Below, in pieces: positions 3,588 to 35,189 of a stretch of 40,406 nucleotides of DNA. The position numbers were made by a program, and so were the translations under genes. Below the pieces are notes generated by a model, which was given only the letters and a program-made list of their open reading frames with translations, did not search any database and was not told the DNA's origin. This DNA is from Acidobacteriota bacterium (lineage in GTDB: Bacteria > Acidobacteriota > Vicinamibacteria > Vicinamibacterales > 2-12-FULL-66-21), in contig JACPDI010000020.1 of NCBI GenBank assembly GCA_016184105.1, forward strand, positions 1 through 40,406, given 5' to 3'. Every line of letters starts with the position of its first letter. Positions within the stretch are counted from its first letter, which is position 1.

Positions 3588-4232
3588 TTGGCCCAGATTT
3601 TCCCCCCCTGGTGGAACAAACTCCCGCTCGCCGCCGCCCTTGCGGGCAGCCTCGGTGCGGCCCTCGCGATCGCGGGCGTCTGGTACTACTTTTCTCCGTG
3701 GTACACAGACGTCGGCTACCGTCCCGTTCAGCCCGTCCCCTACAGCCACAAACTTCACGCCGGCGAGCTGGGTCTCGATTGCCGGTACTGCCACGCCTCG
3801 GTCGAGATTTCCGCGGTCGCGAACGTTCCGCCCACACAGACCTGCATGAACTGCCATCAGACGGTGAAGAGGGACAGCGCGAAGCTCGCACCGATCCGGG
3901 ACAGCGCCGCCAGCGGCCGGCCGATGCGCTGGATCCGCGTCCACAAGCTTCCCGACTACGCCTATTTCGCCCACAGCGCGCATGTGGCGGCAGGAATCGG
4001 CTGCGTCACCTGCCACGGCCGCATCGACGAGATGGAAACCGTCACCCAGACGACGCCGCTCAGCATGAGCTGGTGCGTCGACTGCCACCGGAACCCCGGT
4101 CCCTACAGACGCCCCGTTTCAGAGGTCACCAACATGAAGTGGACCCCTCCCCGGGACGTCCGGATGCTCGCGGCCGTGCTCGGCGACCGACCGGTCAATC
4201 CGCCGACTGACTGTTCGGGGTGCCACCGGTGA
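3588..4232 (+). CDS. actA: Alternative complex III subunit ActA, pentaheme cytochrome c
   Basis: A 214-residue protein with one N-terminal membrane anchor (about residues 12-32) and five heme c motifs: CRYCH (65), CMNCH (86), CVTCH (139), CVDCH (163) and CSGCH (209). In ACIII, ActA is the pentaheme subunit that passes electrons from the quinol-oxidising core to downstream cytochromes on the periplasmic side. The start is a TTG at 3588. A stop codon lies two codons upstream in frame, and the FPPWWN sequence just after the start is typical of ActA N-termini. It is the first gene of the plus-strand respiratory operon and overlaps actB by four bases (GTGA). Confidence 0.93.
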   Translation: MAQIFPPWWNKLPLAAALAGSLGAALAIAGVWYYFSPWYTDVGYRPVQPVPYSHKLHAGELGLDCRYCHASVEISAVANVPPTQTCMNCHQTVKRDSAKLAPIRDSAASGRPMRWIRVHKLPDYAYFAHSAHVAAGIGCVTCHGRIDEMETVTQTTPLSMSWCVDCHRNPGPYRRPVSEVTNMKWTPPRDVRMLAAVLGDRPVNPPTDCSGCHR

Positions 4233-7195: not shown

Positions 7196-7791
7196 GGGGG
7201 CGGAATCGCGTGTTCGCGTTCCTCTTTCTTGCGTCCGCCGTGGGTGCTGCGGCGGGCTGCGCGCGCGGCTGCACGTCGAGCCGCCCTCCCATCCATCTCA
7301 ATCCGAGCATGGACGACCAGCCGAAGGTCCGCGCGCAGACGGCGAGCAACTTCTTCTACAACGGCGCGTCCATGAGAGAGCCCGTTCCCGGAACGGTCCC
7401 GATCGGCGGGCTGAAGGAAGACGTGCCCTTCTTCACCGGAAAGGAGGCGGACGGGCCGTTTGTCGCGACGATTCCCGTTCCCGTGGACGAGACGCTCGTC
7501 GAGCGCGGGCGCGAGCGGTATCGCATCTACTGCCAGCCGTGCCACGACGCCCGGGGGGAGGGCAAGGGGATCCTGTTCCAGCGAGGCAACGTCCCCACCG
7601 CCTCCTTTCACCAGGACAAGATCCTGAAGTACCCGGACGGGCAGATCTTCGACGTCATCACGAACGGGAGCGGGCTGATGGCCGGATACCGCTGGCCGAT
7701 CCCTCCCGCGGACAGGTGGGCGATCGTCGCCTACGTGCGGGAGCTCCAGCGCAAGCGGCCGGCAGGCGTCACGGGCATCCAGGGGAAATGA
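7192..7791 (+). CDS. actE: ActE-like monoheme cytochrome c lipoprotein
   Basis: A 199-residue protein with a lipoprotein-type signal (AVGAAAGC, Cys22), one heme motif CQPCH at residues 114-118 and a likely axial methionine in NGSGLMAGYRWPI. The layout and the PIPPADRWAIVAYVREL ending match ActE, the monoheme cytochrome c subunit of ACIII that hands electrons to soluble carriers or directly to the oxidase. The ATG overlaps the actB stop (ATGA). In classical act operons actC and actD lie between B and E; they are missing here and are found on the minus strand. A generic small cytochrome c is the alternative. Confidence 0.82.
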   Translation: MRGRNRVFAFLFLASAVGAAAGCARGCTSSRPPIHLNPSMDDQPKVRAQTASNFFYNGASMREPVPGTVPIGGLKEDVPFFTGKEADGPFVATIPVPVDETLVERGRERYRIYCQPCHDARGEGKGILFQRGNVPTASFHQDKILKYPDGQIFDVITNGSGLMAGYRWPIPPADRWAIVAYVRELQRKRPAGVTGIQGK

Positions 7792-7801
7792 GGGAGGCGT
7801 C

Positions 7802-9709
7802 GTGCTGAACGGCGTGATGAACCGCAAACTGCTCGTCGTTCTCGGTCCCCTCACCGTACTCGTGATGTTCGCGGGGACGGTCAAGATGGCCTCGTTGCTA
7901 TTGGACCGCGAGTACAAGGAGCCTTACCGGGCTCCTTCCGCGGCCGTTGACGCGACGCCCCGCGCGCAGGGACTCGCCGCCGAGAGGGCCGATGCGGAGA
8001 GCAAGGCGCGCGCGAAGCCCTACGCGGAGGCCGAGTACCGTACCTTTCCGGTCGTCGGCAGCCGCGTGGCCATCTGGGCGGTCGCGCAGCTTCACCTGCT
8101 GTTCGCGGCGTTCGTCCTGGCCATCCCGATCTTCGCGTTCATCATCGAGGTGATCGGCTACAAGACCGGAGATCTGCGTTACGACCGGCTCGCGTACGAG
8201 TTCACGAAGCTCCTCTCCGTCTCCTTCTCGCTCACCGCGACCTTCGGGGCGTTCCTGACGTTCATGCTCATCATCCTGTATCCGAAGTTCACGAACTACC
8301 TGATGAGCGTGTTCTCTCCCACCTTTCTCCCGTACGTCCTGCTCTTCTTCCTCGAGGCGTTCTTCCTCTACACCTACTATTACGGCTGGGGGAAGTTCCA
8401 TCCCCTGGTTCATCTCGGCCTGGGGCTCGGCCTCAACGTCGCGGGCACGGCGATCATGATGATCGCCAATGCCTGGCTCACCTTCATGATGTCGCCGCGC
8501 GGGGTCTCGGACACGGGGGCGGTGATCTCCGTCTGGGACGCGGTCACCAACCTCACCTGGATGCCGATCAACGTCCATCGATTCATCGCGAACATCGCGT
8601 TCGGCGGGTCGGTCGCCGCCGCGTATGCGGCGTTCAAGTTCCTGCAGGCTGAAACAGACGAGGAGCGGGCGCACTACGACTGGATGGGATACATCGGCAA
8701 CTTCGTCGCGATCAGCGCCTTCCTCCCGCTCCCCTTCGCCGGCTACTGGCTCGCGAAGGAGATCTACGCGTTCTCGCAGACGCTCGGGCTCATCATGATG
8801 GGCGGGGCCTTCTCGTGGCTCTTCATCATCCAGGCCGTCCTGATCGGGAACCTCTTCCTCGCCGCCAACTACTACCTGTGGCTCGGGATGGGGCGGGTCG
8901 AGGGAGTGCAGCCGCTTCAGAAGTTCATCAAGTACCTTCTCATCGCGATCGTGCTCTGCTTCATGGTCTGGGCGACGCCGCGATCGATCATCGCGACCGT
9001 CTCCGAAATCCGGGCGATGGGAGGATCGTCGCACCCCATTCTGGGCTACCTCGGTGTCATGTCCGCCAAGAACACCGCCGTGAACATCCTGATCCTGACG
9101 ACCTTCATGAGCTTCCTCCTCTACCGCCGGACGGGGAAGGTCGCAACGGTGGCCTGGGCGAAGACGGGCCATGCGGCGCAGCTCTCGATCTTCGCGGCCG
9201 CCGCGTTGTTCGTCATCTTCCTCGGCGTCTACGGGTACTTCGTCGAGGCGACGGTCCGGATCCGGCTCTCGGTGCCCCAGGTCGGCTCGGTCCTGCTCGC
9301 CATGGCGTCGATCACCGCCATCGACATCTTCCTCTTCCGCGGGGCGAGGAAGACCGAGGTGCGCTGGGGAAGAATTCCGGCGATCTCGCAATACGTGCTG
9401 ATCTTCATCGCGGTGACCTTCACCTGGCTCATGGGGCTCATGGGCTACGTTCGATCCGGGCTTCGCCAGCACTGGCATGTGTACGGCGTCATTCGGGACC
9501 AGTCGGCCGACGCGTTTACACCCACGCTTGGCTTCGCGACCGAGGTCGTCTCGGTGACCGTGCTCGGGTTCTTCCTCCTGATCGGCGTCGTGTTCTGGAT
9601 CACGAGCCTGCACGACCGGCCCGATTTCAAACGGGAAGCCGCCCCGCGAGCCCGGCGACGGCTATCCCAAGTGGTGGTCGGGTCGGCCGGCACCAGGGAA
9701 CAGAGGTGA
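7802..9709 (+). CDS. Cytochrome bd-type subunit I (CydA)-like membrane protein
   Basis: A 635-residue protein with about 14 hydrophobic segments. It resembles the CydA family in its first helices: a histidine in AQLHLLFAAFVLAIP could be the heme ligand equivalent to CydA His19, FFLEAFFLYTYYYGW matches the CydA FFLE segment, and VHRFIANIAFGG may hold the second histidine. No Q-loop typical of quinol oxidases and no cydB gene are seen, so it belongs to a divergent branch that may take electrons from cytochrome c rather than quinol. Three cytochrome c genes follow. The start is the GTG at 7802, 4 nt after GGGAGG; an ATG at 7817 is possible. The last ~30 residues look non-native, and another frame over 9632-9718 reads GDGYPKWW, so a C-terminal frameshift is possible. 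Confidence 0.75.
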   Translation: MLNGVMNRKLLVVLGPLTVLVMFAGTVKMASLLLDREYKEPYRAPSAAVDATPRAQGLAAERADAESKARAKPYAEAEYRTFPVVGSRVAIWAVAQLHLLFAAFVLAIPIFAFIIEVIGYKTGDLRYDRLAYEFTKLLSVSFSLTATFGAFLTFMLIILYPKFTNYLMSVFSPTFLPYVLLFFLEAFFLYTYYYGWGKFHPLVHLGLGLGLNVAGTAIMMIANAWLTFMMSPRGVSDTGAVISVWDAVTNLTWMPINVHRFIANIAFGGSVAAAYAAFKFLQAETDEERAHYDWMGYIGNFVAISAFLPLPFAGYWLAKEIYAFSQTLGLIMMGGAFSWLFIIQAVLIGNLFLAANYYLWLGMGRVEGVQPLQKFIKYLLIAIVLCFMVWATPRSIIATVSEIRAMGGSSHPILGYLGVMSAKNTAVNILILTTFMSFLLYRRTGKVATVAWAKTGHAAQLSIFAAAALFVIFLGVYGYFVEATVRIRLSVPQVGSVLLAMASITAIDIFLFRGARKTEVRWGRIPAISQYVLIFIAVTFTWLMGLMGYVRSGLRQHWHVYGVIRDQSADAFTPTLGFATEVVSVTVLGFFLLIGVVFWITSLHDRPDFKREAAPRARRRLSQVVVGSAGTREQR

Positions 9710-9715
9710 GCGGTT

Positions 9716-10174
9716 GTGAAGCAATCCTGCCGCGAGCAAGCGCAGCGAGCGAGCCACGCGACCGGAGCGGGGCCTTGGGGCCACCGCGAGGGAGCGTGTA
9801 GCGGGGTCCCCGCCGCGCGGACTGTGCGCGCGACCTGCCACACGATCGGCAAGACGGGGGCGCTCCGGTTCCCCGACCTCGAGGGGGTCGGTGTCCGCGC
9901 GAAGACCCGCGTCCCGGGCCTGAGCGACGTCGAGTACTTCGCGCAGTCGATGTACGAACCTGACGCCTTCATCGTGCCGGGATTCAATCGGGGGATGCCC
10001 GTCATCAACAAGCCTCCGATCGGCCTCACCGATCAGGAGATCCTCTGCGTGATCGCGTACCTCCAGACTCTTGGCGGCACGCCGACGGTGACGCTCCAGA
10101 CGACCCACCGTTACCGCGCGGCGCCGGCTGCCTCCCAGGAGGCGGCGCGGCCCGCTGGAGCGGTGGCACGATGA
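9716..10174 (+). CDS. Cytochrome c-like protein with repeat-derived N-terminus and damaged heme motif
   Basis: The frame starts at a GTG and ends with ATGA overlap into the next gene. From about residue 44 it looks like a class I cytochrome c: TCHTIGKTG, then a possible axial methionine in NRGMPVI and a C-terminal EILCVIAYLQTL helix. The heme motif reads RATCH, so the first cysteine of CxxCH is missing. The first ~40 residues are encoded by a copy of the ~95-bp dispersed repeat. Removing two or four bases at the CG run near 9834 would restore CATCH. The gene may be a cytochrome damaged by repeat insertion, a severed C-terminal domain of the CydA-like protein, or a sequencing error. Whether it makes a functional cytochrome is doubtful. 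Confidence 0.55.
   Translation: MKQSCREQAQRASHATGAGPWGHREGACSGVPAARTVRATCHTIGKTGALRFPDLEGVGVRAKTRVPGLSDVEYFAQSMYEPDAFIVPGFNRGMPVINKPPIGLTDQEILCVIAYLQTLGGTPTVTLQTTHRYRAAPAASQEAARPAGAVAR
9731..9820 (+). repeat. ~95-bp dispersed repeat, copy 1
   Basis: Shares with the other copies GCGCAGCGAGCGAGCCACGC, CGGAGCGGGGC and GAGCGTGTAG in the same order. It lies between the CydA-like gene and the cytochrome c-like gene and is read through in frame. It is the most diverged 3' end: the GAA-loop hairpin is replaced by CGGGGTCCCCG. Confidence 0.8.
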
Positions 10175-10989
10175 ACATTCCGATCGTCCTGGCCGTCGCT
10201 GCCGCGTTCGGGCTCCTTCGCCTCCGTCGGGCCAACCTGCTGATATGGGCCGTCGCGTGGTGGGCGGGGATCTACGTCCTGCTCCGGTTCGGATTCACTG
10301 CCCCGATTCCCTCCTCCGTCGTCTCGCTTTACATGGGAATCGTCTCGATTGCGATCCTGGCGTACGTGTCCTCCAGTCAGGAGCGGCGCGAGGAAGCCTC
10401 CCGCCCGCTCGTCCGGTTCATGACGGAGAAGCGGTACACGGCGCTCCTCGGCGCGACGGTCGTCGCCCTCCCGGCGCTCGCGGCCGCGAACGTCTACGTC
10501 CAGATGAGCGTCCCCATCGAGCCCCCGCTCTTCCCGCGAACGGTCCACCCCGCCTCCCCGACGGAGGTGACCGTTCACGAGAAGAGGATCGACCTGGACG
10601 CCGGAGACAGCCCCTTCCGGCACCTCGAGTCTTCGAATCCGGAAGAGTTCCGCAGGCACGTCGAGAACGGGCGCCAGGTCTACTACCGGAACTGCGTCTT
10701 CTGCCACGGCGACGACCTGTCCGGCAACGGCATGTTCGCCCACGCGCTGGACCCGATCCCGACCAACTTCACCGACCAGGGGACGATTCCGAACCTGCGG
10801 GAGACGTTCCTCTTCTGGCGGGTTTCCAAGGGGGGACCGGGACTTCCCGAGGAAGGGGGTCCCTGGGACACCGCCATGCCGGCCTGGGAGAAGTTCCTGA
10901 AGGAAGAAGAGATGTGGGAGGCGATCCTCTTTCTTTACGATTTCACGGGCCACAGGCCTCGCGCCAGGGAGGAGGTCGCGAGGGAATGA
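10171..10989 (+). CDS. Membrane-bound monoheme cytochrome c
   Basis: A 272-residue protein with three predicted N-terminal membrane helices (about residues 3-15, 22-42 and 48-68), a fourth near 90-110, and a periplasmic cytochrome c domain with CVFCH at 175-179. A likely axial methionine is in DTAMPAWEKF. Starts and stops overlap neighbours on both sides (ATGA), so it is co-translated with the flanking cytochromes. Its place after the CydA-like gene suggests it delivers or accepts electrons in the same complex. I do not recognise a named family for the whole protein. Confidence 0.8.
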   Translation: MNIPIVLAVAAAFGLLRLRRANLLIWAVAWWAGIYVLLRFGFTAPIPSSVVSLYMGIVSIAILAYVSSSQERREEASRPLVRFMTEKRYTALLGATVVALPALAAANVYVQMSVPIEPPLFPRTVHPASPTEVTVHEKRIDLDAGDSPFRHLESSNPEEFRRHVENGRQVYYRNCVFCHGDDLSGNGMFAHALDPIPTNFTDQGTIPNLRETFLFWRVSKGGPGLPEEGGPWDTAMPAWEKFLKEEEMWEAILFLYDFTGHRPRAREEVARE

Positions 10990-12695
10990 TCTCCCGCCCG
11001 ATCGGCCCGCGCTGGTCTCTCGCTGCAGGTCTCGCGGTCCTGATTGCCGCGGTGTGTCTCGCGCTGACGGGATCGGCGCGGGTGACGGCTCAAAACGTGA
11101 CCGAAGCGCAGCGCGAGTCCGGCAGGACGCTCTATCTCAAGTACTGCGCGCAGTGCCACGGCGAGAAAGGGGACGGCGAAGGCTACGCCACCCCACACCT
11201 GCGCCCCAGGCCCCGCGACTTCACCCAGGGCAAGTTCAAGGTCCGCACGACTCCCAGCGGGGCGCTCCCGACCCATCAGGACCTCGTCGACATCATCAGG
11301 CGCGGCATGCCCTACACCTCGATGCCCGCCTGGCCCAACCTCTCCGGCCAGGAAGCATCGGATCTCGCGCACTTCATCACGACGTTCTCCGCCGACTTCT
11401 CCAAGGGCGAGAACGCCCCCCAGCCTGTTCCGCTCCCGAGTGCGCCGAACGCCACGAGGGAGTCGATCGAGCTTGGGAAGAAGCTCTATGTTGAAAGCGG
11501 CTGCGTGCGGTGCCACGGGACGCTCGGCCGGGGCGACGGACCTTCCGCGCCAACCCTGGTGGACGACTGGGGGCATCCGATACGCGCGGCGAACCTCTCG
11601 CAGAACTGGACCTTCCGGGGCGGGTCGTCGCGCGAGGACATCTTCCGGACGATGAGCACGGGGTTCAATGGGACGCCCATGCCGTCGTTCCTCGAGGCGC
11701 TGACGCCCGAGCAGCGATGGGCGATCACCGACTTCATCGTCTCGCTCTCGGGCGGCAAGGGGCCTGGCTATACCAACCTGGTCGTCGCCAGGCACGTCCA
11801 GGATCCGATCGATCTGAAGAGGGGGGCTGCGAGCTTCGAATCCGCGCCGGTCGCCCGCTTTCCGATCATCGGACAGATCATGGAGCCCGGACGCGCGTTC
11901 CATCCTCCCGCCACCTCCGTGACCGTTCAGGCGATCTACGACGCCGAGTCGATCGCCCTCCTCGTCCGATGGCACGACATGAGCGCGCAGAAGACGGGGA
12001 AGAACGGGCCGTCGCTTCCCGTGCCTCCGGAGGAGGAAGAGGAGTCGGCGCCGGGAGCTCCGCAGGAGACCGGACAGAGCCCCTTCGGCGAGGCGGAGTT
12101 GCCGCCGGCGGCGGACCCCTTCGCCGAGGAGGAAGCCGCGCCGGCCGTCCAGCCGTCCGAGTTCTCCGACGCCGTCGCGATCCAGATTCCTTCGCAGGTG
12201 CCGGCCGGCGCGCGAAAGCCGTACTTCATCTTCGGCGACGCCCAGAACCCGGTGGATCTCTGGTTCTTCGATCTGGCCCGCCCCGATCCGCTTCAGTTCA
12301 CCGGCCGCGGCAGCGCGGACATCGCGCCCGACGACACCGGGGAGCTCACGGGAGTCGCGAGCTACGACCAGGGAGAGTGGTCGGTCATCTTCAAGCGGCC
12401 CCTTCGCGCAGGCTCGGGCGCCTCCTTCTCGCCCGGACAGTTCCTGCCGGTCGCCTTCTCGGTCTGGGACGGGTTGTCGCGCGAGCGTGGCAACAGGCGA
12501 GGTCTCACGGCCTGGTACTCCCTCTACGTCGAGCCAGAGGTGGTTCCATCAGCCGTCGGCCCGATGGTGAAGACGGCGTCGCTCATTCTCGCCATCGAGC
12601 TGGCCGTGATTGGCTGGGTGCGGCGGCGCTACGGATCTCGCGCCGGCGAGGAGTCCGGCGGTCGGCGGAGGCAGCAGGCGGCCACCAGCGCATGA
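10986..12695 (+). CDS. Diheme cytochrome c with C-terminal EB_dh-like heme b domain and membrane anchor
   Basis: A 569-residue protein. It has a signal anchor at about 12-35, a first cytochrome c domain with CAQCH at 54-58, a second with CVRCH at 173-177, and from about residue 290 to 540 a beta-rich region. That region (VTVQAIYDAESIALLVRW, DAVAIQIP, DLWFFDL, WSVIFKRPL) resembles the heme-b-binding gamma subunits of ethylbenzene and nitrate/selenate dehydrogenases (EB_dh family). A proline- and glutamate-rich linker interrupts it (about 345-400). A final helix near 545-562 probably anchors it. The ATG overlaps the preceding stop. The protein would hold two hemes c and possibly one heme b and could act as an electron hub for the CydA-like protein or ACIII; this role is inferred. 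Confidence 0.82.
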   Translation: MISRPIGPRWSLAAGLAVLIAAVCLALTGSARVTAQNVTEAQRESGRTLYLKYCAQCHGEKGDGEGYATPHLRPRPRDFTQGKFKVRTTPSGALPTHQDLVDIIRRGMPYTSMPAWPNLSGQEASDLAHFITTFSADFSKGENAPQPVPLPSAPNATRESIELGKKLYVESGCVRCHGTLGRGDGPSAPTLVDDWGHPIRAANLSQNWTFRGGSSREDIFRTMSTGFNGTPMPSFLEALTPEQRWAITDFIVSLSGGKGPGYTNLVVARHVQDPIDLKRGAASFESAPVARFPIIGQIMEPGRAFHPPATSVTVQAIYDAESIALLVRWHDMSAQKTGKNGPSLPVPPEEEEESAPGAPQETGQSPFGEAELPPAADPFAEEEAAPAVQPSEFSDAVAIQIPSQVPAGARKPYFIFGDAQNPVDLWFFDLARPDPLQFTGRGSADIAPDDTGELTGVASYDQGEWSVIFKRPLRAGSGASFSPGQFLPVAFSVWDGLSRERGNRRGLTAWYSLYVEPEVVPSAVGPMVKTASLILAIELAVIGWVRRRYGSRAGEESGGRRRQQAATSA

Positions 12696-12722: not shown

Positions 12723-14726
12723 ATGTACAAGAGCATCTACGTTCCCGTCGATAACTCGGACTACTCCAACCGCGCGTCCGCCTGCGCCATCGCGTTGGGC
12801 AAGGCGTTCTCCGCGAAACTGGTCGGCTGCCATGTGTACGCGGCAAGCCTGCACGACTATCGCTTCAGGCAGATGGAGTACACCCTGCCCGAGGAGTACC
12901 TCGACGAGGTGGAACTGGAGCGCCAGCGGAAGATCCACGACAGCCTCATCACGATGGGCCTCAAGCTCATCTCGGACAGTTATCTCGATGGCATGTCACG
13001 CCTCTGCGTGGAGTCGGGCCTCGCCTTCGAGCCGCGGATGATGGACGGGAAGCATCATGTCGAGATCCTCAAGGATCTCGCCGGCTCCGAGCACGACCTG
13101 GTCGTGATCGGCGCCCTGGGGATCGGGCGCGCCCGGGACAGCGTGATCGGCTCGGTCTGCGAACGCGTCGCCCGCCAGTGCGATCGCGATGTCTGGGTGG
13201 TCAAGCACGTCCCGGAGTCGGGCCCCGAGTTGGGCGATGCCGAGCGGGACACGATCCTGGTCGGCATCGACGGAAGCCCCCAGTCGTTCGGCGCGCTCAT
13301 GACCGCGTCCGAACTGGCCCGCGCGTTCGGCAAGAAGGTCGAGGCGATCGCCGTGTACGATCCTTATCTGCACTACTCGGTCTTCAACGGCATCGTCAAC
13401 GTCCTCACCGAGCAGGCGGCGAAGGTGTTCCGCTTCGAGGAGCAGAATCAGCTCCACGAGGAGATCATCGACACCGGGCTCGCGCAGATCTATCAGTCTC
13501 ATCTCGAGGTGAGCGAGCGTATGGGGAGCGAGATGGGCATCGCGATCAAGAAGACGCTCCTCGACGGCAAGCCCTTCCAGAAGATCCTCGACCACGCGCG
13601 CAAGACGAATCCCTGGCTCATCGTGCTTGGGCGGATCGGCGTTCACAGCCCGAAGGACGAGAAGGCGCTGGGGAGCAACGTGGAGAACGTGCTGCGCGCC
13701 GCGACCTGCGACGTCCTCCTTTCCACGCGCCTCGAGGTGCCCAGGCTCGACGTGCGCGCCGAGGAGACCGTCCGGTGGACGCCCGAAGCCGAGGAGCGGA
13801 TGAAGCGCGTGCCCGAGCAGGTGAAGGGGATTGCCCGCACCGGCGTCCTTCGCCTGGCGCTCGAAAAGGGGCATTCGGTGGTCACCAGCGCGGTGATCGA
13901 CGAGGCGATGGATCGCTTCATGCCGAAGAGCGCCTCGACCGCCACCAAGGCGCTGGCCGAGGCGGTGGCGCTCGAGCGGGCGAAGTCTCGCCCGGTGTCG
14001 ATGTGCCGGGCGTGCGGCGTTGCGGCCACGCAGAGCGATCCGGTGAGGTGCACCGTGTGTGGCGCCTCGGACTTCGAGGTGATCTCCCCGGAGATGATCG
14101 AGAAGATCGCGGCGGTGGAGGGAGGGCTCGAGGAGGAGACCACGTACGACGGGCGCAAGCTCCGCTGGACGGAGGATGCGAGGCGGGGCCTCTGGACCAT
14201 GAAGAACGCCTATCAGCGGCGCCGCGTCAAGGCACGCGTCGAAAAGCGCGCGCGCATGATGAGGCTCGACGCGATCACGCTCGAGTTCGCCCGCCAGGTG
14301 ATCGAGGAGGAGACGGGGGCGCCGCTGGAGATTCAGGCACCGTCCGGGGAGAAGGCCGCCACCGGCACAGGAAGCGACGCGAAGCTCGTCGCGCGCGACG
14401 ACAAGAAGAACCCGCTGATCTCGACGTTCGACTGGACGGACGAGGCCGCGCAGCGGATCTTCCGGGTCCCGGCCGGGTTCATGCGGAGCCAGACGCAGGC
14501 GCGGATCGAGGAGCTTGCGCGCGAGCGCGCCGCGGCGACGATCGACCTCGCCCTCGTCGAAGAGGGAATCGAGTTCGGCAAGCGGATGATGGCCGAGATG
14601 ATCGCGAGCTACTCGGCGCCAGGCGCCGGCGCCGCGACGCCGGCGCGGGATTCGGCGGCCGCGAGCTCGACCGCGAGCGCGCCCGCAGACGGTAACGCGG
14701 GCGGCTACCTCAACGAGGTGACGTAA
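12723..14726 (+). CDS. Tandem UspA protein with three PCP_red domains and a zinc ribbon
   Basis: A 667-residue multidomain protein. Two universal stress protein domains occupy about 1-165 and 178-340; both keep the nucleotide-binding loop (GALGIGRARDSVIGS and GRIGVHSPKDEKALGSN). Then come PCP_red-like domains at about 350-402 (RWTPEAEERMKRVP), 479-530 (LRWTEDARRGLWTM) and 569-625 (FDWTDEAAQRIFRVP). A zinc ribbon with two CxxC pairs (CRACG, CTVCG) sits at about 426-445. PCP_red is the C-terminal domain of the BchB/ChlB subunit of dark protochlorophyllide reductase, where it helps form the tetrapyrrole site. The combination with Usp domains is unfamiliar to me. Two other proteins downstream share PCP_red. 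The start has GGAG 8 nt upstream. The function is unknown; nucleotide-dependent handling of a tetrapyrrole or respiratory cofactor is a guess. Confidence 0.85.
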   Translation: MYKSIYVPVDNSDYSNRASACAIALGKAFSAKLVGCHVYAASLHDYRFRQMEYTLPEEYLDEVELERQRKIHDSLITMGLKLISDSYLDGMSRLCVESGLAFEPRMMDGKHHVEILKDLAGSEHDLVVIGALGIGRARDSVIGSVCERVARQCDRDVWVVKHVPESGPELGDAERDTILVGIDGSPQSFGALMTASELARAFGKKVEAIAVYDPYLHYSVFNGIVNVLTEQAAKVFRFEEQNQLHEEIIDTGLAQIYQSHLEVSERMGSEMGIAIKKTLLDGKPFQKILDHARKTNPWLIVLGRIGVHSPKDEKALGSNVENVLRAATCDVLLSTRLEVPRLDVRAEETVRWTPEAEERMKRVPEQVKGIARTGVLRLALEKGHSVVTSAVIDEAMDRFMPKSASTATKALAEAVALERAKSRPVSMCRACGVAATQSDPVRCTVCGASDFEVISPEMIEKIAAVEGGLEEETTYDGRKLRWTEDARRGLWTMKNAYQRRRVKARVEKRARMMRLDAITLEFARQVIEEETGAPLEIQAPSGEKAATGTGSDAKLVARDDKKNPLISTFDWTDEAAQRIFRVPAGFMRSQTQARIEELARERAAATIDLALVEEGIEFGKRMMAEMIASYSAPGAGAATPARDSAAASSTASAPADGNAGGYLNEVT

Positions 14727-14787
14727 AAGGGGGACAGTCACACTTCTGCTCCGCCCTCCTGACAGCAGAAGTGTGACTGTCCCCCTT
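14727..14787. repeat. Perfect 24-bp inverted repeat with 13-nt loop
   Basis: Arms at 14727-14750 and 14764-14787 are fully complementary; each contains GGGGGACAGTCACACTTCTG or its complement. It begins at the base after the Usp/PCP_red stop codon. It has no U-run, so it is not a textbook terminator, but it would make a very strong RNA hairpin. The GACAGTCACACTT core resembles REP-like elements mobilised by RAYT transposases; that link is from memory, not from anything in this window. Confidence 0.9.
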
Positions 14788-14794
14788 CCGAAGA

Positions 14795-15727
14795 ATGCCC
14801 GCATACCGTTTCTGCCGCACGGACGACATCGCGCTTCTCGTCGACGCGCTCAATCGCTGCTGGTCTCCGTACTTTCCCGGCGAGCCAGCCGTGACGCCGG
14901 CTGCGTTCAAGCGGTCGATCCGCGACCTTCAGGTCTGGTGCAGCAGCTGCATGGTTGCCTTCTCGGGTTCCGACGCGATCGGCGTCCTGATCGGCGCCAA
15001 GCGGCCGTCCGGTACCCTCGTTCACACGATCGCCGTCCATCCGGATCATCGGCGACAGGGTCACGGCCGTCACCTGCTCGCCTCGCTCGGGTCGAAGCTC
15101 GCGATTCTCGGCCCTCCCCGGATCGCCGCCGAAGTCCCCGAGAGCCTCGCCCCTGCCTGCGGGCTGTTCAGCGCAAGCGGATACGTCCAGGAAGCGCTGC
15201 TGACGGACTTCGTCCTGCAGCGCGAAGAGAACGATGCGCGCGAGGCAGCGTCAGAGGATCACCGCGGCCGGTTCGTGATTCCTGTCACCGTTGACGATCT
15301 CGCCGCCAACGGTCTCCTCGGGGAGGATCATCCGCAGGTGTGCTGGGAGCGTTCGGTCGAGACCCTCACCGCGAGGAAGGACGACATCGCAGGATTGGCG
15401 GTGGCCTCCGACGAGCGAATCGAGGCGTACCTTCTTTATGTAGATTCGGGGGGCTTCGCCCCAGCGGCAGAGATTGTGTCGCTCCGCTCGTTCGTGGAGG
15501 ACGGTGGAGCCCGTTTGAAGCAACTCCTGTCGCGACTGCGCGCGAAACGCACGGGAACCTTGCAATTCCCGAAGGTTCATCCGGCGGAGATCTCGAAGGA
15601 GTGCCTGGAGGCGCTGGGGTTCCGCGCGGCCGGTGCGCATCGACTCTATGCGGCGAGGGCGCGCGCCGACCTCGAACGCCCATTCGGCCGAGACGTCACC
15701 TTCCGTGGCCGATGCGGGACGGTGTAA
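14795..15727 (+). CDS. GNAT family acetyltransferase, probably two-domain
   Basis: A 310-residue protein. The N-terminal GNAT domain has the acetyl-CoA loop IAVHPDHRRQGHGRHLL (about residues 76-92) and a following cofactor-side helix. The C-terminal half (from about 165) resembles a second, degenerate GNAT fold with no clear acetyl-CoA loop. The substrate cannot be told from the sequence. The ATG at 14795 follows the inverted repeat by 7 nt and has no clear Shine-Dalgarno. A short GGGGGGCTTCGCCCC hairpin at 15447-15462, identical to the end of the ~95-bp repeat, lies inside the coding region. It is separated from the Usp gene by the hairpin and from mrp by a dispersed repeat, so it may be a bystander in this cassette. 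Confidence 0.75.
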   Translation: MPAYRFCRTDDIALLVDALNRCWSPYFPGEPAVTPAAFKRSIRDLQVWCSSCMVAFSGSDAIGVLIGAKRPSGTLVHTIAVHPDHRRQGHGRHLLASLGSKLAILGPPRIAAEVPESLAPACGLFSASGYVQEALLTDFVLQREENDAREAASEDHRGRFVIPVTVDDLAANGLLGEDHPQVCWERSVETLTARKDDIAGLAVASDERIEAYLLYVDSGGFAPAAEIVSLRSFVEDGGARLKQLLSRLRAKRTGTLQFPKVHPAEISKECLEALGFRAAGAHRLYAARARADLERPFGRDVTFRGRCGTV

Positions 15728-15769
15728 GCTAAGCGGCCTCGGAATAGCGGGTTAGCCGCGGGCCCTTTA

Positions 15770-15862
15770 GCGAGCGCAGCGAGTGAGCCACGCGAGCGGA
15801 GCGGGGCAGTGGGTCCCCGCGAGCGAGCGTGTAGGGGGTCCGGCGGGGCGAAGCCCCCCGGT
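15770..15862 (+). repeat. ~95-bp dispersed repeat, copy 2
   Basis: Contains GAGCGCAGCGAGTGAGCCAC, GAGCGGAGCGGGGC, GCGAGCGAGCGTGTAG and a terminal hairpin GGCGGGGCGAAGCCCCCCGG (15840-15861 with one bulged C). The hairpin ends 7 nt before the mrp ATG. Same orientation as mrp. Confidence 0.88.
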
Positions 15863-15868
15863 CCAACA

Positions 15869-16786
15869 ATGAAGCACTACCACGACATCGCCGGCGACGG
15901 AGGATCCAGAATCCTCGAGCAGGTCGCCGAGCAGCGCGACCGCATCACCGACGGGCTCGCCGGGGTGCGCCATCTCGTCGCCGTCGGCTCGGGCAAGGGG
16001 GGAGTCGGCAAGAGCACCCTGACGCGGCACCTTGCGGGCGCCCTGCGCGCCCGTGGGCTTCGGATTGCGATCCTGGACGCGGACTTCAACGGCCCCTCGC
16101 AGGCGCGCATGGCAGGGATCCAGGGGGCCTTGTTCGTTCCCGGCAGCGACAAGGTCCCGCTCCCGCGGACCAGGGACGGGATCGCGGTCTTCTCGATGGG
16201 GTCGCTGATCCCGGAGTCGGAGGCGCTCGAGTTCGAGAGCGCGGCGCGCGGAGAGTCCCATACGTGGCGCGCCACGAAGGAGTTCGCGCTCCTCGGCGAG
16301 ATCCTCGGTGCCTTCGAATGGGGCGCGCTCGATCTACTGCTTTTCGATCTGCCGCCCGGAGCCGAGCGGACCGTCCAGTACGCTGATTTTCTCGGGCCGC
16401 GGACCTCGTTCCTGCTCGTCACGATCCCCTCCGAGGTGGCGCGGGGCGTAGTCGCGCGCTCGGTGGCGGCGCTGTCGAAGAGACCCAATCGGCTCCTCGG
16501 GTACGTCGAGAACATGAGCGGCTACTACTGCCGCGACTGCGACGCCATCAAGCCGCTCTTTGCGCCATCCTCAGGCCGGGGGGCTTCGCCCCGCCGCCCC
16601 CCCCTGCGCGCTCTTGGCGCGCCCGAGCCCTCAGATCTCGGAATCCCGTGCCTGGGGACCGTTCCGTTCGATCCGGAGCTTGCGCGGCACTGCGACGAGG
16701 GAACGCCACCCGGGGCACTCGACGAAACGCCCGTGGGTCGGGCGCTGGACGAGATCGCGCAGCGCCTTCTGGAGTCTGTCCAATGA
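15869..16786 (+). CDS. mrp: Mrp/NBP35-type P-loop ATPase (Fe-S carrier family)
   Basis: A 305-residue protein with the deviant Walker A GSGKGGVGKST (about 44-54), LDADFNGPS (switch I region), LLLFDLPPGAERT (Walker B-like), and the Mrp signature ENMSGYYCRDC, whose CxxC is used in Mrp/NBP35 dimers to hold a [4Fe-4S] cluster. BchL and NifH belong to the same broad ATPase class. The ATG at 15869 was chosen because homology begins near it; there is no Shine-Dalgarno, only a repeat hairpin ending 7 nt upstream. An extra stretch of about 20 residues (SSGRGASPRRPPLRALG) before DLGIPCLGTVPFD is encoded by a fragment of the dispersed repeat. The stop overlaps the next start (ATGA). It probably loads an Fe-S cluster onto the neighbouring radical SAM or zinc-ribbon protein; inferred. 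Confidence 0.87.
   Translation: MKHYHDIAGDGGSRILEQVAEQRDRITDGLAGVRHLVAVGSGKGGVGKSTLTRHLAGALRARGLRIAILDADFNGPSQARMAGIQGALFVPGSDKVPLPRTRDGIAVFSMGSLIPESEALEFESAARGESHTWRATKEFALLGEILGAFEWGALDLLLFDLPPGAERTVQYADFLGPRTSFLLVTIPSEVARGVVARSVAALSKRPNRLLGYVENMSGYYCRDCDAIKPLFAPSSGRGASPRRPPLRALGAPEPSDLGIPCLGTVPFDPELARHCDEGTPPGALDETPVGRALDEIAQRLLESVQ
16576..16610 (-). repeat. Fragment of the dispersed repeat inside mrp
   Basis: The complement reads GGCGGGGCGAAGCCCCCCGG, the 3' end of the ~95-bp element, preceded by GCGCAGGGGGG. It is in the opposite orientation to mrp and is read in frame as an Arg/Pro-rich insert between two conserved Mrp blocks. Confidence 0.7.
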
Positions 16787-17250
16787 AATTCCTTTGCATC
16801 CCGTGCGACACGCCGATGACGCTCCAAACCGTCGGCCCGCCCGAGGGCGGCTCGCTCTCGGTCGTCTACTCGTGCCCCGAGTGCGGCTACGAGATGGCGA
16901 TGCTGACCAATCCATTCGAGACACAGCTCGTCCAGTCGCTCGGCGTGCGGATCGGCCCCTCGACAATGCTCGGGGCGGGCCCCTCGACCGAAGAGCGCGA
17001 GCTCACGTCGGGCGCCAAATGCCCGTTCCCCGCGATGATGCCGGCGACCGGCACCGAGGCGCGACACGTCCGGACCGAAGAGCCGATCCCGATCCGGTGG
17101 ACCTCCGCCGCCGAAGCGCGGCTCGCGAACATTCCCGCGTTCGTCCGCCCCATGGCGAAGATCGGCATCGAGAAATTCGCCCGGGAGAGGGGGGCAGAGG
17201 AAGTGGACGAGAAGATCCTCGACGCGGCGCGCGAGTTCTTCGGCATGTAA
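16783..17250 (+). CDS. Zinc-ribbon protein with C-terminal PCP_red domain
   Basis: A 155-residue protein with N-terminal CIPCDTPM and CPECGYEM cysteine pairs (about residues 5-8 and 32-35) forming a likely zinc ribbon or Fe-S site, and a C-terminal PCP_red-like helix bundle from about residue 104 (IRWTSAAEARLANIPAFVRP). The ATG overlaps the mrp stop by ATGA, so the two proteins are made together. The same RIPAFVR-type motif ends the radical SAM protein that follows. Small PCP_red proteins are known outside phototrophs but uncharacterised as far as I know. A cluster-accepting or scaffold role with Mrp is a hypothesis. Confidence 0.84.
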   Translation: MKFLCIPCDTPMTLQTVGPPEGGSLSVVYSCPECGYEMAMLTNPFETQLVQSLGVRIGPSTMLGAGPSTEERELTSGAKCPFPAMMPATGTEARHVRTEEPIPIRWTSAAEARLANIPAFVRPMAKIGIEKFARERGAEEVDEKILDAAREFFGM

Positions 17251-17266
17251 TTCGATCGAGACGAAC

Positions 17267-18688
17267 ATGCCGCTTGTCAACGCCAGCGCGTTCCACCGGC
17301 CCTACGTCATCTCCTGGAACCTGACGTACCGCTGCAACCTCGCCTGCGAGCACTGCTACCTCGACGCCGGCGGCACGCTTCTCTCACCCCAACGCGCAAC
17401 AGACGCGCGCCGGGGGCCCCGGCTGGTCGGCACGGAGAACTTCGCCGATCGGAGCGAGCTTGGCACCGAGGAGTGCTTCAAGGTGATCGACGAAATCGCC
17501 GCCTTCGCGCCCGAGTGCCTGACGATCCTGACGGGCGGCGAGCCGCTCCTGCGGCGCGACATCCTCGAGATCGTCCATCGCGCGGCGGAGCGTGAACTCT
17601 GGGTCGTTGTCGGCACCAACGGCGTGCGCATCACGGAGAACCTGGCGCGGCGCCTGGCGGAGGCCGGAGCACGCGGCCTGTCCCTTTCCCTCGATGCGCT
17701 CGACCCCGATCGTCACGACCGCTTCAGGAAGGTGCGTGGCGCCTGGCGAAACACGGTCGGGGGAGCGGAGATCCTCAACCGGACCGGGCTCCCCTTCATC
17801 GTGCAGACGACCGCGGGCTCGCACAATCTCGGCGAGCTCGAAGCGATCGCCGACTTCGCGCACGAACGCCTCGCGGCGAAGGTCTGGAACCTCTACTTCC
17901 TGGTGCCGACGGGACGCGGGCAGTTCGTGTCGGACATGACCCCGGCGCAGTACGACGAGGTTCTCGCCTCTCTCTACCGGATCCAGCGGAAGTACGACCG
18001 CCGGATGCTCGTGAACGCGAAGTGCGCTCCGCACTACATCAAGACCGTTCTGGAAAATGCCGAGACCGATCCGATCCCGGCGGCTGCTGAATCGTGGCCC
18101 GACTTGTCCCGCATCAGGATCTACTCCGGAGGGGCGGGCGGGTGCCCGGCCGGGACGCACTACATGGGAATCCGGCCGAACGGGGATGTCACCCCTTGCC
18201 CATATCTCCCGGTCTTCGCGGGCTCCCTGCGCAGCGCAAGTCTCGCGGACCTCTGGACCTCGTCGGGACTGTTCACCGGCATTCGGCGCCGCACCTCGCT
18301 CGGCGGGCGATGCGGGGAATGCGAGATGAACGCCCACTGCGGGGGCTGCCGCGCGCGGGCCTACGGGATGACCGGCGATCTGATGGCCGAAGATCCTCTC
18401 TGCACCCACACCCCCGGCAGGTTCGCCGGCTCGCCTCTTCTCGTCCTCCGCGACCCTGCCGCCGCCTCCGGGGCGCCCCCTGCCATCTATTACGGCGCCG
18501 AGTCGCCGGCAACGATCGCGTGGGACGATGCGGCCGCCGCGCGCATGAAGAGGATTCCCGCGTTCGTCCGGGGGATGGTCGTCCGGGCCGTCGAGGAGTC
18601 CTGCCGCAGGAACGGCCTCGACCGCGTCACCGTTGAAGAGCTCGAGCGGATCCGAGCGCGGATGCCCACCCCAAAACTTTTCGGCTAG
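17267..18688 (+). CDS. Radical SAM/SPASM protein with C-terminal PCP_red domain, NirJ/AhbC-like
   Basis: A 473-residue protein. The radical SAM cluster motif CNLACEHC is at residues 23-30, preceded by YVISWNLTYR as in NirJ and AhbC heme enzymes. GGEPLL follows near residue 90. A SPASM-like region with CPAGTHYMGIRPNGDVTPC and CGECEMNAHCGGC could hold an auxiliary [4Fe-4S] cluster. From about 417 a PCP_red domain (IAWDDAAAARMKRIPAFVR) is fused. Relatives modify heme side chains (heme d1, siroheme-dependent heme) or peptides. Between the cluster motif and the next conserved block there is an extra ~28-residue stretch (residues 35-62). It lies 16 bp after the zinc-ribbon gene in the same unit. 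Which tetrapyrrole or peptide it acts on cannot be told here. Confidence 0.87.
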   Translation: MPLVNASAFHRPYVISWNLTYRCNLACEHCYLDAGGTLLSPQRATDARRGPRLVGTENFADRSELGTEECFKVIDEIAAFAPECLTILTGGEPLLRRDILEIVHRAAERELWVVVGTNGVRITENLARRLAEAGARGLSLSLDALDPDRHDRFRKVRGAWRNTVGGAEILNRTGLPFIVQTTAGSHNLGELEAIADFAHERLAAKVWNLYFLVPTGRGQFVSDMTPAQYDEVLASLYRIQRKYDRRMLVNAKCAPHYIKTVLENAETDPIPAAAESWPDLSRIRIYSGGAGGCPAGTHYMGIRPNGDVTPCPYLPVFAGSLRSASLADLWTSSGLFTGIRRRTSLGGRCGECEMNAHCGGCRARAYGMTGDLMAEDPLCTHTPGRFAGSPLLVLRDPAAASGAPPAIYYGAESPATIAWDDAAAARMKRIPAFVRGMVVRAVEESCRRNGLDRVTVEELERIRARMPTPKLFG

Positions 18689-19583: not shown

Positions 19584-19975
19584 GATGTTCTCGACGCGTT
19601 CTGGAGCTCCGACCATTCGGAGTCGGGCTCGACTTCGGCGATGCGCTTCGCGCGCTTGCGGAGATAGAGGAAGAAGCCCACGAATCCGCCCTGCACCGCC
19701 AGCGTGAGGGCCAGCATCACGACGATACCGAGCTTCGTCCCGTCGATCATCGAGGTTTCCTCCGCCCCGAAGCACATCGGACAGGCGAGGACGCGCGAGC
19801 TGCCGCCGATCATCACGGCCGCCGCCGTCGTGCAGGCCCGTGTCGTTCTTGTCCGCGGGGCTTCGCCCCGCCGGCCCCCCCTACACGCTCGCTCGCGGGG
19901 CCCATTCGCCCCGCTCCGCTCGCGTGGCTCACTCGCTGCGCTCGTTCGCGTCTGACGCCGCGTTCCCGCTTTCAT
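19580..19975 (-). CDS. Small membrane protein of the cox operon, with repeat-encoded N-terminal insert
   Basis: A 131-residue reading frame starting at an ATG that overlaps the preceding stop (ATGA). Residues 9-40 (SAASEPRERSGANGPRERA and on) are encoded by the ~95-bp dispersed repeat. After it comes a hydrophobic leader-like stretch, CPMCFGAEET, one membrane helix (LGIVVMLALTLAVQGGFVGFFLYL) and a basic tail. An alternative start at 19813 would skip the repeat and give 77 residues. Small proteins with a CPxCFG motif next to coxB occur in other bacteria, but I know of no assigned function. The CxxC could bind metal or heme during oxidase assembly; this is speculative. Confidence 0.65.
   Translation of the reverse strand: MKAGTRRQTRTSAASEPRERSGANGPRERACRGGRRGEAPRTRTTRACTTAAAVMIGGSSRVLACPMCFGAEETSMIDGTKLGIVVMLALTLAVQGGFVGFFLYLRKRAKRIAEVEPDSEWSELQNASRTS
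19852..19951 (-). repeat. ~95-bp dispersed repeat, copy 3
   Basis: Read on the minus strand it is nearly identical to the copy at 15770-15862: GAGCGCAGCGAGTGAGCCAC, GAGCGGAGCGGGGC, GAGCGAGCGTGTAG and the hairpin GGCGGGGCGAAGCCCC. It lies within the N-terminal coding part of a small cox-operon gene, in the direction of transcription. Confidence 0.88.
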
Positions 19976-33658: not shown

Positions 33659-35189
33659 TTGAAGCGATCGATTGCACACTCCGCGTTTGCCTGCGCCGTC
33701 GCCGTCGCCGTCGTGGCGGCGGCGGCGCTGTCCGCGCAGGGGGCCGCGAGCGGCGCCCGCGCCGCGGCGCCCAAGGCCGTTCACGCCAAGCAGGTGAAAC
33801 GGCTGCTCATCGCCAACGCGATGGTGATCTACGGCAATGCCAAACCGCCGTTCGGTCCGGTGGACATCCTGAGCGAGGACGGCCTCATCGCGCGGATTGG
33901 CGATTCGAAGTCGGGCAACTGGCCGGCCGCCGACATGGTCATCGATGCGACGGGCAAGTACGTGATGCCCGGCATGATCAACACGCACATGCACTGGCAC
34001 GAGGACCGCGTGCCCGGCATCCCGATGCCGATCCAGTACGAGCGCAATCTCTACCTGGCGTCCGGCGTGACGACCACACGTGAAGTCGGCAACTCGTCGG
34101 CCGACGGCATCCGCAAGGAGGCGCTGAGCAGCCTGGAAAAGGCGAAGCGCTGGCAGGCGGAAAGCAACGCGCACACGATCGTCGCGCCCCGGATGATCGA
34201 ATACCCGTTCGTGGTCGTGGAGGGCGCCACGCCAGACGCTCTGCGCGCCCAGGTGCGCGAGCTGAAGAAACAGGGGGCCGACGGCCTGAAGCTGGCGGGC
34301 CTCGATCGCGACCAGCTGGCGGCCGTGCTGGACGAGGCGCGCAAGCAGGGACTTCGGACCACGGCGCACATCGCCGTTGAGGAGACGACCGCCCGCGACT
34401 ACGTGGACCTGGGCGTGGACTGCATCGAGCACTTCTACGGTGTGGGCGACGCGGCGCTCGACGGCATCCAGGACTTCCCGCCGGAGCACAACTCCTACAA
34501 CGAAATCCATCGCTTCGGCCGTGCGGGCGAGCTGTACATCCAGAACAACTTCAACCCGGCTAAGCTCTCGGCGGTGCTCGACGACATGGTGAAGAAGGGG
34601 ATCGCATGGAGCCCGACGCTCTCCACCTACGAGGCGTCGCGCGATCTGATCAAGGCGCAGAACCTGCCCTGGTACAAGGACTACCTGCACCCGTCGCTCG
34701 AGGCGTACTACGAGCCGAGCATGGCGCGCCACGGCACGTTCTGGATCGGCTGGAGCGAGGCGAACGAAACCAAGTGGCGCAAGAACTACCAGGTCTGGAT
34801 GGACGCGCTCTACGAGTTCGGCCGGAAAGGCGGAATCATCACGACGGGTGACGATGCCGGGTACCTGTATGGATCGCTGTACGGATTCGGCGTCGTGCGG
34901 GAGCTGGAGCTGCAGCATGAAGCGGGCTTCCACCCGCTCGAGGTGTTGAAGCATGCCACAGTGAACGGCGCGAAGGTCCTGGGACTGGAGGATCGGCTCG
35001 GGCGCGTGCGGCTCGGGTACGTCGCCGACCTGCTCGTGGTCAACGGCAACCCGCTCGAGAACCTGCGCCTCCTAGTGGACGATCAAGGACGGCATCCCGT
35101 ACCACGTGCCGACCCTGATGAAGGAAGTCAAGGACATGGTGGCGACCGCGCGCGCCGCGCGCAGCCGGTCGACCACGTCGCAGCCGTAG
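33659..35189 (+). pseudogene. Amidohydrolase family gene with C-terminal frameshift
   Basis: A secreted metal-dependent hydrolase (imidazolonepropionase/prolidase-like amidohydrolase) starting at a TTG at 33659 with AGGAGA upstream and a signal peptide. The HxH motif NTHMHWHE, IAVEE, CIEHFYGVGD and the final TTGDDAGY are present. After ENLRLL (to 35073) the frame turns to nonsense and would run on to 35872 inside the next gene. In another frame 35077-35189 reads WTIKDGIPYHVPTLMKEVKD and ends in TAG, the normal end of such proteins. Thus a segment of roughly 20 codons and the frame were lost at 35074. DNA from about 34397 to 35073 is nearly identical to the next gene (offset 1489 bp) up to exactly this point, suggesting recombination between the copies or a misassembly. 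Confidence 0.75.

Follow-up and report, generated by a model that had tools for sequence, protein, structure and literature searches.

A gene cassette rich in PCP_red domains accompanies a CydA-like/cytochrome c gene set in Acidobacteriota and other phyla

Contig JACPDI010000020.1 of an Acidobacteriota bacterium (assembly GCA_016184105.1) was analyzed over a stretch of 40,406 nucleotides, referred to here as the window. Between a plus-strand respiratory operon and a minus-strand cytochrome c oxidase operon lie five genes, forming a cassette in which three proteins carry five copies of PCP_red (PF08369), the domain found at the C-terminus of protochlorophyllide reductase subunits. This gene set, carried by non-photosynthetic bacteria of soil and water, tracks a family of CydA-like membrane proteins over several phyla, and on balance, with modest conviction, we favor the reading that it is a dedicated cytoplasmic module in which a heme-type cofactor is prepared, modified or delivered for use by the CydA-like/cytochrome c complex encoded immediately upstream. 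The cassette consists of the following features:

12723-14726, plus strand: Usp-PCP_red protein (PF00582, 128.9 bits; three PF08369 matches)
13776-13907, plus strand: PCP_red copy 1 of the Usp protein (PF08369, 42.4 bits)
14166-14297, plus strand: PCP_red copy 2 of the Usp protein, degenerate (PF08369, 18.3 bits, E = 0.012)
14433-14564, plus strand: PCP_red copy 3 of the Usp protein (PF08369, 38.2 bits)
14795-15727, plus strand: GNAT acetyltransferase-family protein, a conserved cassette member (PF00583; 37 of 40 loci)
15869-16786, plus strand: Mrp/ApbC/NUBPL-type P-loop ATPase with a conserved CxxC (PF10609, 164 bits)
16783-17250, plus strand: zinc-ribbon protein (PF08369, 58.3 bits) with one PCP_red (17098-17232, 60.7 bits)
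17267-18688, plus strand: AhbD/NirJ-like radical SAM/SPASM protein (PF04055, PF13186, PF08369) with a C-terminal PCP_red (18521-18652, 51.2 bits)

Counted from the end of the upstream cytochrome gene cytc3 onward through the cassette genes, the gaps are 27, 68, 141, -4 and 16 bases, so that the Mrp and zinc-ribbon genes share 4 bases. All three PCP_red proteins exceeded the Pfam gathering cut-off of PF08369 (32.5 bits), with 74.8 bits over three stretches for the Usp protein, 58.3 for the zinc-ribbon protein and 45.9 for the radical SAM protein, and searching all six frames of the 4.24 Mb genome returned five matches, all inside the cassette. Since there is no match elsewhere in the genome, we excluded a chance match, and the five copies in three proteins that a preliminary description of this DNA had reported were thus borne out. 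Four copies pass the cut-off alone and copy 2 of the Usp protein does not; its conserved columns persist across 56 orthologues, a tree of PCP_red domains sets it apart as a separate clade (support 100/98), and in an AlphaFold2 model it has three helices (residues 484-490, 496-512 and 520-531) in the same pattern as copies 1 and 3. The five copy positions form separate clades in this tree of only 49 columns (support 91/91 to 100/98), and for this reason the copies look old rather than recently duplicated. The C-terminal regions, which the preliminary description had proposed to check by profile and by structure, matched by profile in all three proteins and, for the zinc-ribbon protein, by structure as well: a Foldseek search with its model ranked 2l09 and 2kru first and second (E = 0.002 and 0.007). 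By profile and fold this is the same domain as the stand-alone 2l09 and the C-terminal PCP_red of BchB/ChlB (2kru, 2ynm) in the dark-operative protochlorophyllide oxidoreductase (DPOR), and the cassette proteins differ from the latter in lacking the Oxidored_nitro core, there being no PF00148 (nitrogenase-type catalytic domain) match in any of the three. We also considered a remnant of photosynthesis and rejected it, as the six-frame search found no further PF08369 gene, hence no PCP_red-bearing BchB, in this genome, and the Acidobacteriota genomes with PCP_red that lack the CydA-like gene are mainly three with BchB/BchZ-like genes.

Using the Usp protein as query against GTDB genomes in one scan, we obtained 59 loci, most of them from Acidobacteriota, some labeled Deltaproteobacteria or Myxococcota and one Verrucomicrobia. 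The order of the genes changes little among them and reads ActB-like, cytochrome c, CydA-like, three cytochromes c, Usp-PCP_red, GNAT, Mrp, zinc ribbon and radical SAM. We counted neighbors within 10 kb flanks at the 40 Usp-PCP_red loci whose flanks were long enough, and found CydA-like, cytc2 and cytc3 each in 39, GNAT in 37, ActB in 31, Mrp and zinc ribbon in 31, radical SAM in 25 and the heme-copper (aa3) oxidase in 9-10, the radical SAM and oxidase counts being lower bounds because the flanks end. The GNAT gene, which lies inside the cassette, had been missed by the preliminary description. Of the two partners whose co-occurrence it had proposed to check, the CydA-like gene was upheld (39/40 loci, and 30/30 Acidobacteriota genomes, below) and the act genes proved frequent (31/40) without being constant. 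Alternative complex III (ACIII) as a constant client of the cassette was therefore rejected, ActB being missing from 9/40 loci that keep Usp-PCP_red, and the neighborhood does not support the aa3 oxidase as client (9-10/40, a count limited by the 10 kb flanks). In the loci examined, the Mrp gene adjoins the PCP_red zinc-ribbon gene. The isolate Sulfidibacter corallicola, with a complete genome, holds Mrp, Usp-PCP_red, CydA-like with cytochrome c domains, radical SAM-PCP_red and GNAT in one region, and its zinc-ribbon protein has no PCP_red. In relatives we also looked for additional pathway genes in the interval from Usp to GNAT, which held an MFS transporter, a beta-propeller protein and proteins of unknown kind. 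In one relative (locus L124, genome G400) the Usp protein has four or more PCP_red copies, and after it comes another protein with multiple copies of the domain. Three loci labeled Acidimicrobiia or Cyanobacteria (L044, L048 and L080) have Usp genes 79-84% identical to that of the window, and these labels are probably wrong.

Across 297 Acidobacteriota genomes, PF08369 was present in 34 and the CydA-like protein (scored at E < 1e-20) in 30, all 30 among the 34 (Fisher p = 4e-37 over genomes and 2e-20 over genera, with 16/16 at genus level); these p-values overstate independence because the genomes are related, and the genus-level count is fairer. The four remaining PCP_red genomes comprise G012, with one 112-aa remnant, and three with chlorophyll genes (G140, G164 and G199), presumably Chloracidobacterium, in which a BchB-sized gene is accompanied by a second PF08369 gene matching BchZ best (506 bits, just under the cut-off of 529, as tested for G199). 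The link between CydA-like and PCP_red genes also holds where the parts lie on separate contigs (G067, G198, G272, G273, G295 and G170) or about 20 kb apart (G160 and G265). In Desulfobacterota, PCP_red occurred in 64/198 genomes and was of several kinds. Fourteen sampled genomes with the radical SAM, Usp or zinc-ribbon type had CydA-like in 12 and cytc3 in 13, in contrast to 0/20 for either gene in genomes with a siroheme-reductase-like PCP_red protein (p = 2e-7 for CydA-like and 2e-8 for cytc3); the siroheme type was checked for 10 of these 20 and assigned to the remainder by the same open reading frame (ORF) size, and a few of them gave CydA-like matches of about 45 bits, as expected for ordinary CydA. 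Cassette-type genes neighbor CydA-like and cytc3 genes in several Desulfobacterota genomes. In G627 (contig C4), for example, Usp-PCP_red (99637), radical SAM-PCP_red (98579) and a strong AhbD-like gene (97102; 494 bits) lie side by side, with cytc3 (92722) and CydA-like (89138) a few kb away. Most sampled Myxococcota genomes agree with the CydA-like link.

The genes upstream of the cassette in the window are as follows:

4220-7195, plus strand: ActB/Qrc-like molybdopterin-Fe-S protein, a frequent, not constant neighbor (31/40 loci)
7192-7791, plus strand: monoheme cytochrome c, a frequent, not constant neighbor (32/40 loci)
7802-9709, plus strand: CydA-like membrane protein of the cytochrome bd superfamily, whose residues indicate the non-quinol type (PF01654, 86.7 bits)
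9716-10174, plus strand: cytc1, cytochrome c subunit, N-terminally disrupted here (PF00034, 22.9 bits)
10171-10989, plus strand: cytc2, membrane-anchored monoheme cytochrome c (PF13442; one CXXCH; 39/40 loci)
10986-12695, plus strand: cytc3, diheme cytochrome c with a C-terminal EbdC-like heme b domain (PF00034, PF13442, PF09459)

The PF01654 match covers the N-terminal part of the CydA-like protein, in which H93 and E180 correspond to H19 and E107 of Escherichia coli and are kept in 42/42 orthologues. The quinol residues K252/E257 and the heme ligands M393/E445 are not conserved in the alignment, which is uncertain at the C-terminus and at H186. The protein resembles non-quinol bd-like oxidases in its four-helix part, in the H19/E107 equivalents and in the ACIII-type genes that are often adjacent. 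The available portion of one study describes a Nitrospirales OR-N5 bd-like reductase directly downstream of ACIII genes, gives the oxygen affinity of the OR-N types as unknown, and mentions no maturation cassette (PMC12342949). In the window cytc1 lacks both CXXCH and the membrane anchor, whereas orthologues keep the anchor and a CFTCH; either the gene is genuinely disrupted or the assembly went wrong at a repeat. cytc3 has two CXXCH motifs and matched the heme b subunit model TIGR03477 with 74.8 bits, below its cut-off. The CydA-like protein or the EbdC-like heme b domain of cytc3 could be the recipient of a cofactor.

The radical SAM protein, which the preliminary description had called NirJ/AhbC-like, was confirmed as an AhbD/NirJ-like radical SAM/SPASM protein: its best-scoring model was TIGR04545 (AhbD), at 282.4 bits in the protein search and 268.8 in the genome search against a curated cut-off of 500. 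The CX3CX2C motif and the SPASM cysteines are conserved in at least 95% of orthologues (C23, C27, C30, C253, C293, C311, C349, C352, C358, C361 and C379). AhbD, together with NirJ/NirJ2 and AhbC, has the same architecture and includes its nearest sampled relatives in our tree, where the protein groups with Desulfobacterota radical SAM-PCP_red proteins with moderate support (82/83), beside but apart from AhbD. It differs from AhbD in its score, in the extra PCP_red and in its association with the CydA-like genes and not with heme synthesis at large, and in three Desulfobacterota genomes radical SAM-PCP_red is a paralogue of an AhbD that itself exceeds the 500-bit cut-off. AhbD and NirJ act on tetrapyrroles (PMC7242693).

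The Usp-PCP_red protein is unusually conserved (56-87% identity across phyla) and reads, in order, two ATP-motif Usp domains (PF00582 above its cut-off in two stretches; G2xG9xGS in both), PCP_red 1, a zinc ribbon, PCP_red 2 and PCP_red 3. In its model (pLDDT 76.5), the top fold match of the Usp part was TTHA0350 with ATP; tandem universal stress proteins such as TTHA0350 and UspE are alike in having two Usp domains with ATP motifs, and the cassette protein adds to these three PCP_red domains and the zinc ribbon. CPF or CPV occurred in 17/42 Usp tails, and CPF was invariant in 35/35 zinc-ribbon proteins, where it sits in a linker of low predicted confidence (pLDDT 74.6 overall, above 90 in the PCP_red part). 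CP motifs resemble heme regulatory motifs, which we take as a lead only.

For the Mrp protein, the family given in the preliminary description stood (PF10609, 164 bits against a cut-off of 27.1) and the likeness to BchL/NifH did not, the NifH/BchL models reaching only E = 0.01-0.04 (PF00142 at 13.8 bits, cut-off 25; TIGR01281 at 14 bits, cut-off 345); a role as BchL analogue was accordingly rejected. The deviant Walker A motif GKGGVGKS and C221/C224 are conserved, and the protein falls far under the NCBIfam ApbC and MrpORP equivalog cut-offs. From its motifs and profiles it is a predicted Fe-S carrier of the NUBPL/ApbC type, not a BchL-like reductase, and it differs from known Mrp/ApbC/NUBPL carriers, which share the PF10609 match, Walker A and CxxC, by its PCP_red zinc-ribbon neighbor. 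Short GC-rich REP-like repeats lie at 15771-15872, 15834-15876, 16561-16603 and 19843-19944 of the window; one is read in frame within the Mrp gene, and some relatives have comparable extra residues in the Mrp and zinc-ribbon linkers.

We next consider the proteins to which PCP_red is fused elsewhere. The sample comprised 58 ORFs taken from four groups, and 55 of them, most not of the cassette type, match PF08369 at E < 1e-5. About 40 of these 55 carry a tetrapyrrole-enzyme domain. The partners were NIR_SIR (14), radical SAM (13, nine with SPASM), Oxidored_nitro of the BchB/BchZ type (9), Chlor_dismutase (3) and Haem_oxygenas_2 (1), as well as Usp (4), MamH-like MFS (3), flavin reductase (2), sigma-54 (2) and DUF169 (1); the sigma-54 matches look like false PCP_red because the matched stretch lies in an AAA/Fis-like region. 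One sampled ORF is a clear BchZ, the tested chlorite dismutase fusion is HemQ-like, and the two HutW/ChuW fusions tested (L155 and L193) scored 424.8 and 434.3 bits with TIGR04107, both above the cut-off of 400. Judged by sequence, the enzymes that keep turning up with PCP_red belong to the chemistry of protochlorophyllide, chlorophyllide, coproheme, heme and siroheme; their folds are unrelated, and what they have in common is a tetrapyrrole. That the cassette, too, would handle a tetrapyrrole is suggested most strongly by this, because PCP_red partners elsewhere are mostly tetrapyrrole enzymes.

Several of these fusions are worth recording for themselves. PCP_red is N-terminal in HutW/ChuW-like radical SAM proteins (L155, L156 and L193, in the phylum of G332) and in chlorite dismutase/HemQ-family proteins of Myxococcota (L116, L118 and L119), the latter being the sole PCP_red genes of their genomes; no heme genes were seen beside these PCP_red-ChdC fusions among the few neighbors scanned. 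Fusion to small siroheme reductase-like 4Fe-4S proteins (L142, L149, L151, L160 and others) is the commonest architecture in the Desulfobacterota sample. PCP_red also occurs at the C-terminus of MFS proteins (L170, L174 and L175, the last related to the magnetosome transporter MamH), a non-tetrapyrrole context, and three copies occur with a zinc ribbon and, by sequence order, probably a heme-oxygenase-like domain in L176:762-2312 (G731).

The gene links and families are observations, and from them we infer every chemical step of the favored cofactor module, including a modified tetrapyrrole. The radical SAM-PCP_red protein would act on side chains of an iron porphyrin, and the PCP_red domains of the Usp and zinc-ribbon proteins would bind or pass on the tetrapyrrole or dock partners, with the heme-motif-like CPF sequences perhaps helping in either. 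ATP on the Usp domains or on Mrp might drive assembly, and Mrp may load Fe-S clusters, most simply onto the radical SAM protein. The tetrapyrrole and respiratory link put forward in the preliminary description is thus retained, through the fusion partners and the CydA-like co-occurrence, and its proposal of ACIII as client is dropped. Several points weigh against the module. Radical SAM, Mrp or zinc-ribbon genes are out of reach in several relatives' loci, the Usp tail of this genome has no CPF, and two CydA-free genomes (G644 and G753) keep radical SAM/Usp-type PCP_red. The fusion sample was chosen by availability, and PCP_red, being also present on MamH-like transporter, flavin reductase-like and DUF169 proteins, is not a strict tetrapyrrole mark. 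Finally, co-occurrence cannot tell the making of a cofactor from regulation of the complex.

A more specific and distinctly less probable proposal is that PCP_red is a general tetrapyrrole-docking domain and that the cassette makes a modified, perhaps chlorin-type, heme inserted only into the CydA-like oxidase family.

It is rather doubtful that the cassette serves Fe-S maturation instead, with Mrp and the zinc-ribbon protein inserting clusters into ActB and other Fe-S subunits and PCP_red docking Mrp-type ATPases only, as it might do for BchL in DPOR. Such a role would suit a NUBPL/ApbC-type carrier with a conserved CxxC whose gene overlaps that of the zinc-ribbon protein, but ActB is absent from 9/40 loci, the Usp-PCP_red and radical SAM-PCP_red pair tracks CydA-like and cytc3 in Desulfobacterota, and no Mrp partner is apparent for the fusions of the ChdC, HutW and siroheme types. 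Similarly unlikely in our estimate is a regulatory or protective module, in which Usp, GNAT and PCP_red would sense energy or oxygen and switch the CydA-like complex, and the radical SAM protein would modify a protein residue. The two ATP-type Usp domains and the GNAT protein are consistent with this, as is the SPASM domain, common in peptide-modifying radical SAM enzymes; the nearest radical SAM relatives nevertheless act on tetrapyrroles, as do most PCP_red fusion partners.

An alternative supply of heme b, with the radical SAM protein simply an AhbD-type coproheme decarboxylase needing no oxygen or peroxide, is improbable. Its kinship to AhbD fits, and so do the PCP_red fusions in the HemQ-like family, whose known representatives catalyze the same overall reaction. 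However, this genome has an ordinary ChdC-family gene (G000:C13:31153, 197.7 bits) and ChdC does not track the cassette (10/30 vs 100/267 genomes), which makes plain heme b supply unlikely, and three Desulfobacterota genomes hold a separate AhbD above 500 bits beside radical SAM-PCP_red. The same counts gave no support to the cassette as a replacement for ChdC. Fragments of, or weak matches to, the chlorite dismutase family lie about 10 kb from the cassette in three genomes (G014:C1:6271841, G057:C11:44573 and G036:C21:61441), two with internal stops. Passive linkage, in which the genes co-travel on one transferred operon with no common function, accords with the patchy spread (34/297 genomes), which suggests transfer or repeated loss, and is very improbable given that parts on split contigs or about 20 kb apart still co-occur and that several phyla, differing in gene order, show the same link.

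Elsewhere in the window, 1236-2255 encodes a SIR2-like domain protein (PF13289), a type frequent in defense systems, and the adjacent genes at 33760-34527 and 35288-36016 share stretches 83-86% identical, a tandem duplication.

The families themselves (PCP_red, Mrp, Usp and AhbD-like) are already known. Our search of the open-access literature, with most subscription journals outside it, found no relevant paper on PCP_red, PF08369 or this gene combination, nor any account there of how the combination is linked to the CydA-like family or of how widely PCP_red is spread among tetrapyrrole enzymes. Where the heme d of ordinary cytochrome bd comes from is unsettled, and to our knowledge how the hemes of its non-quinol relatives are made and inserted is an open question. 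A gene set that tracks one CydA-like family over several phyla supplies named candidates for the making or insertion of these hemes, and these candidates could be tested in Sulfidibacter corallicola, which is in culture and completely sequenced. The presence of PCP_red on siroheme, coproheme, heme-degrading and chlorophyll enzymes would make the domain a usable marker of tetrapyrrole chemistry, and the modified-heme reading, if true, would mean a new heme-modification pathway in non-photosynthetic bacteria.

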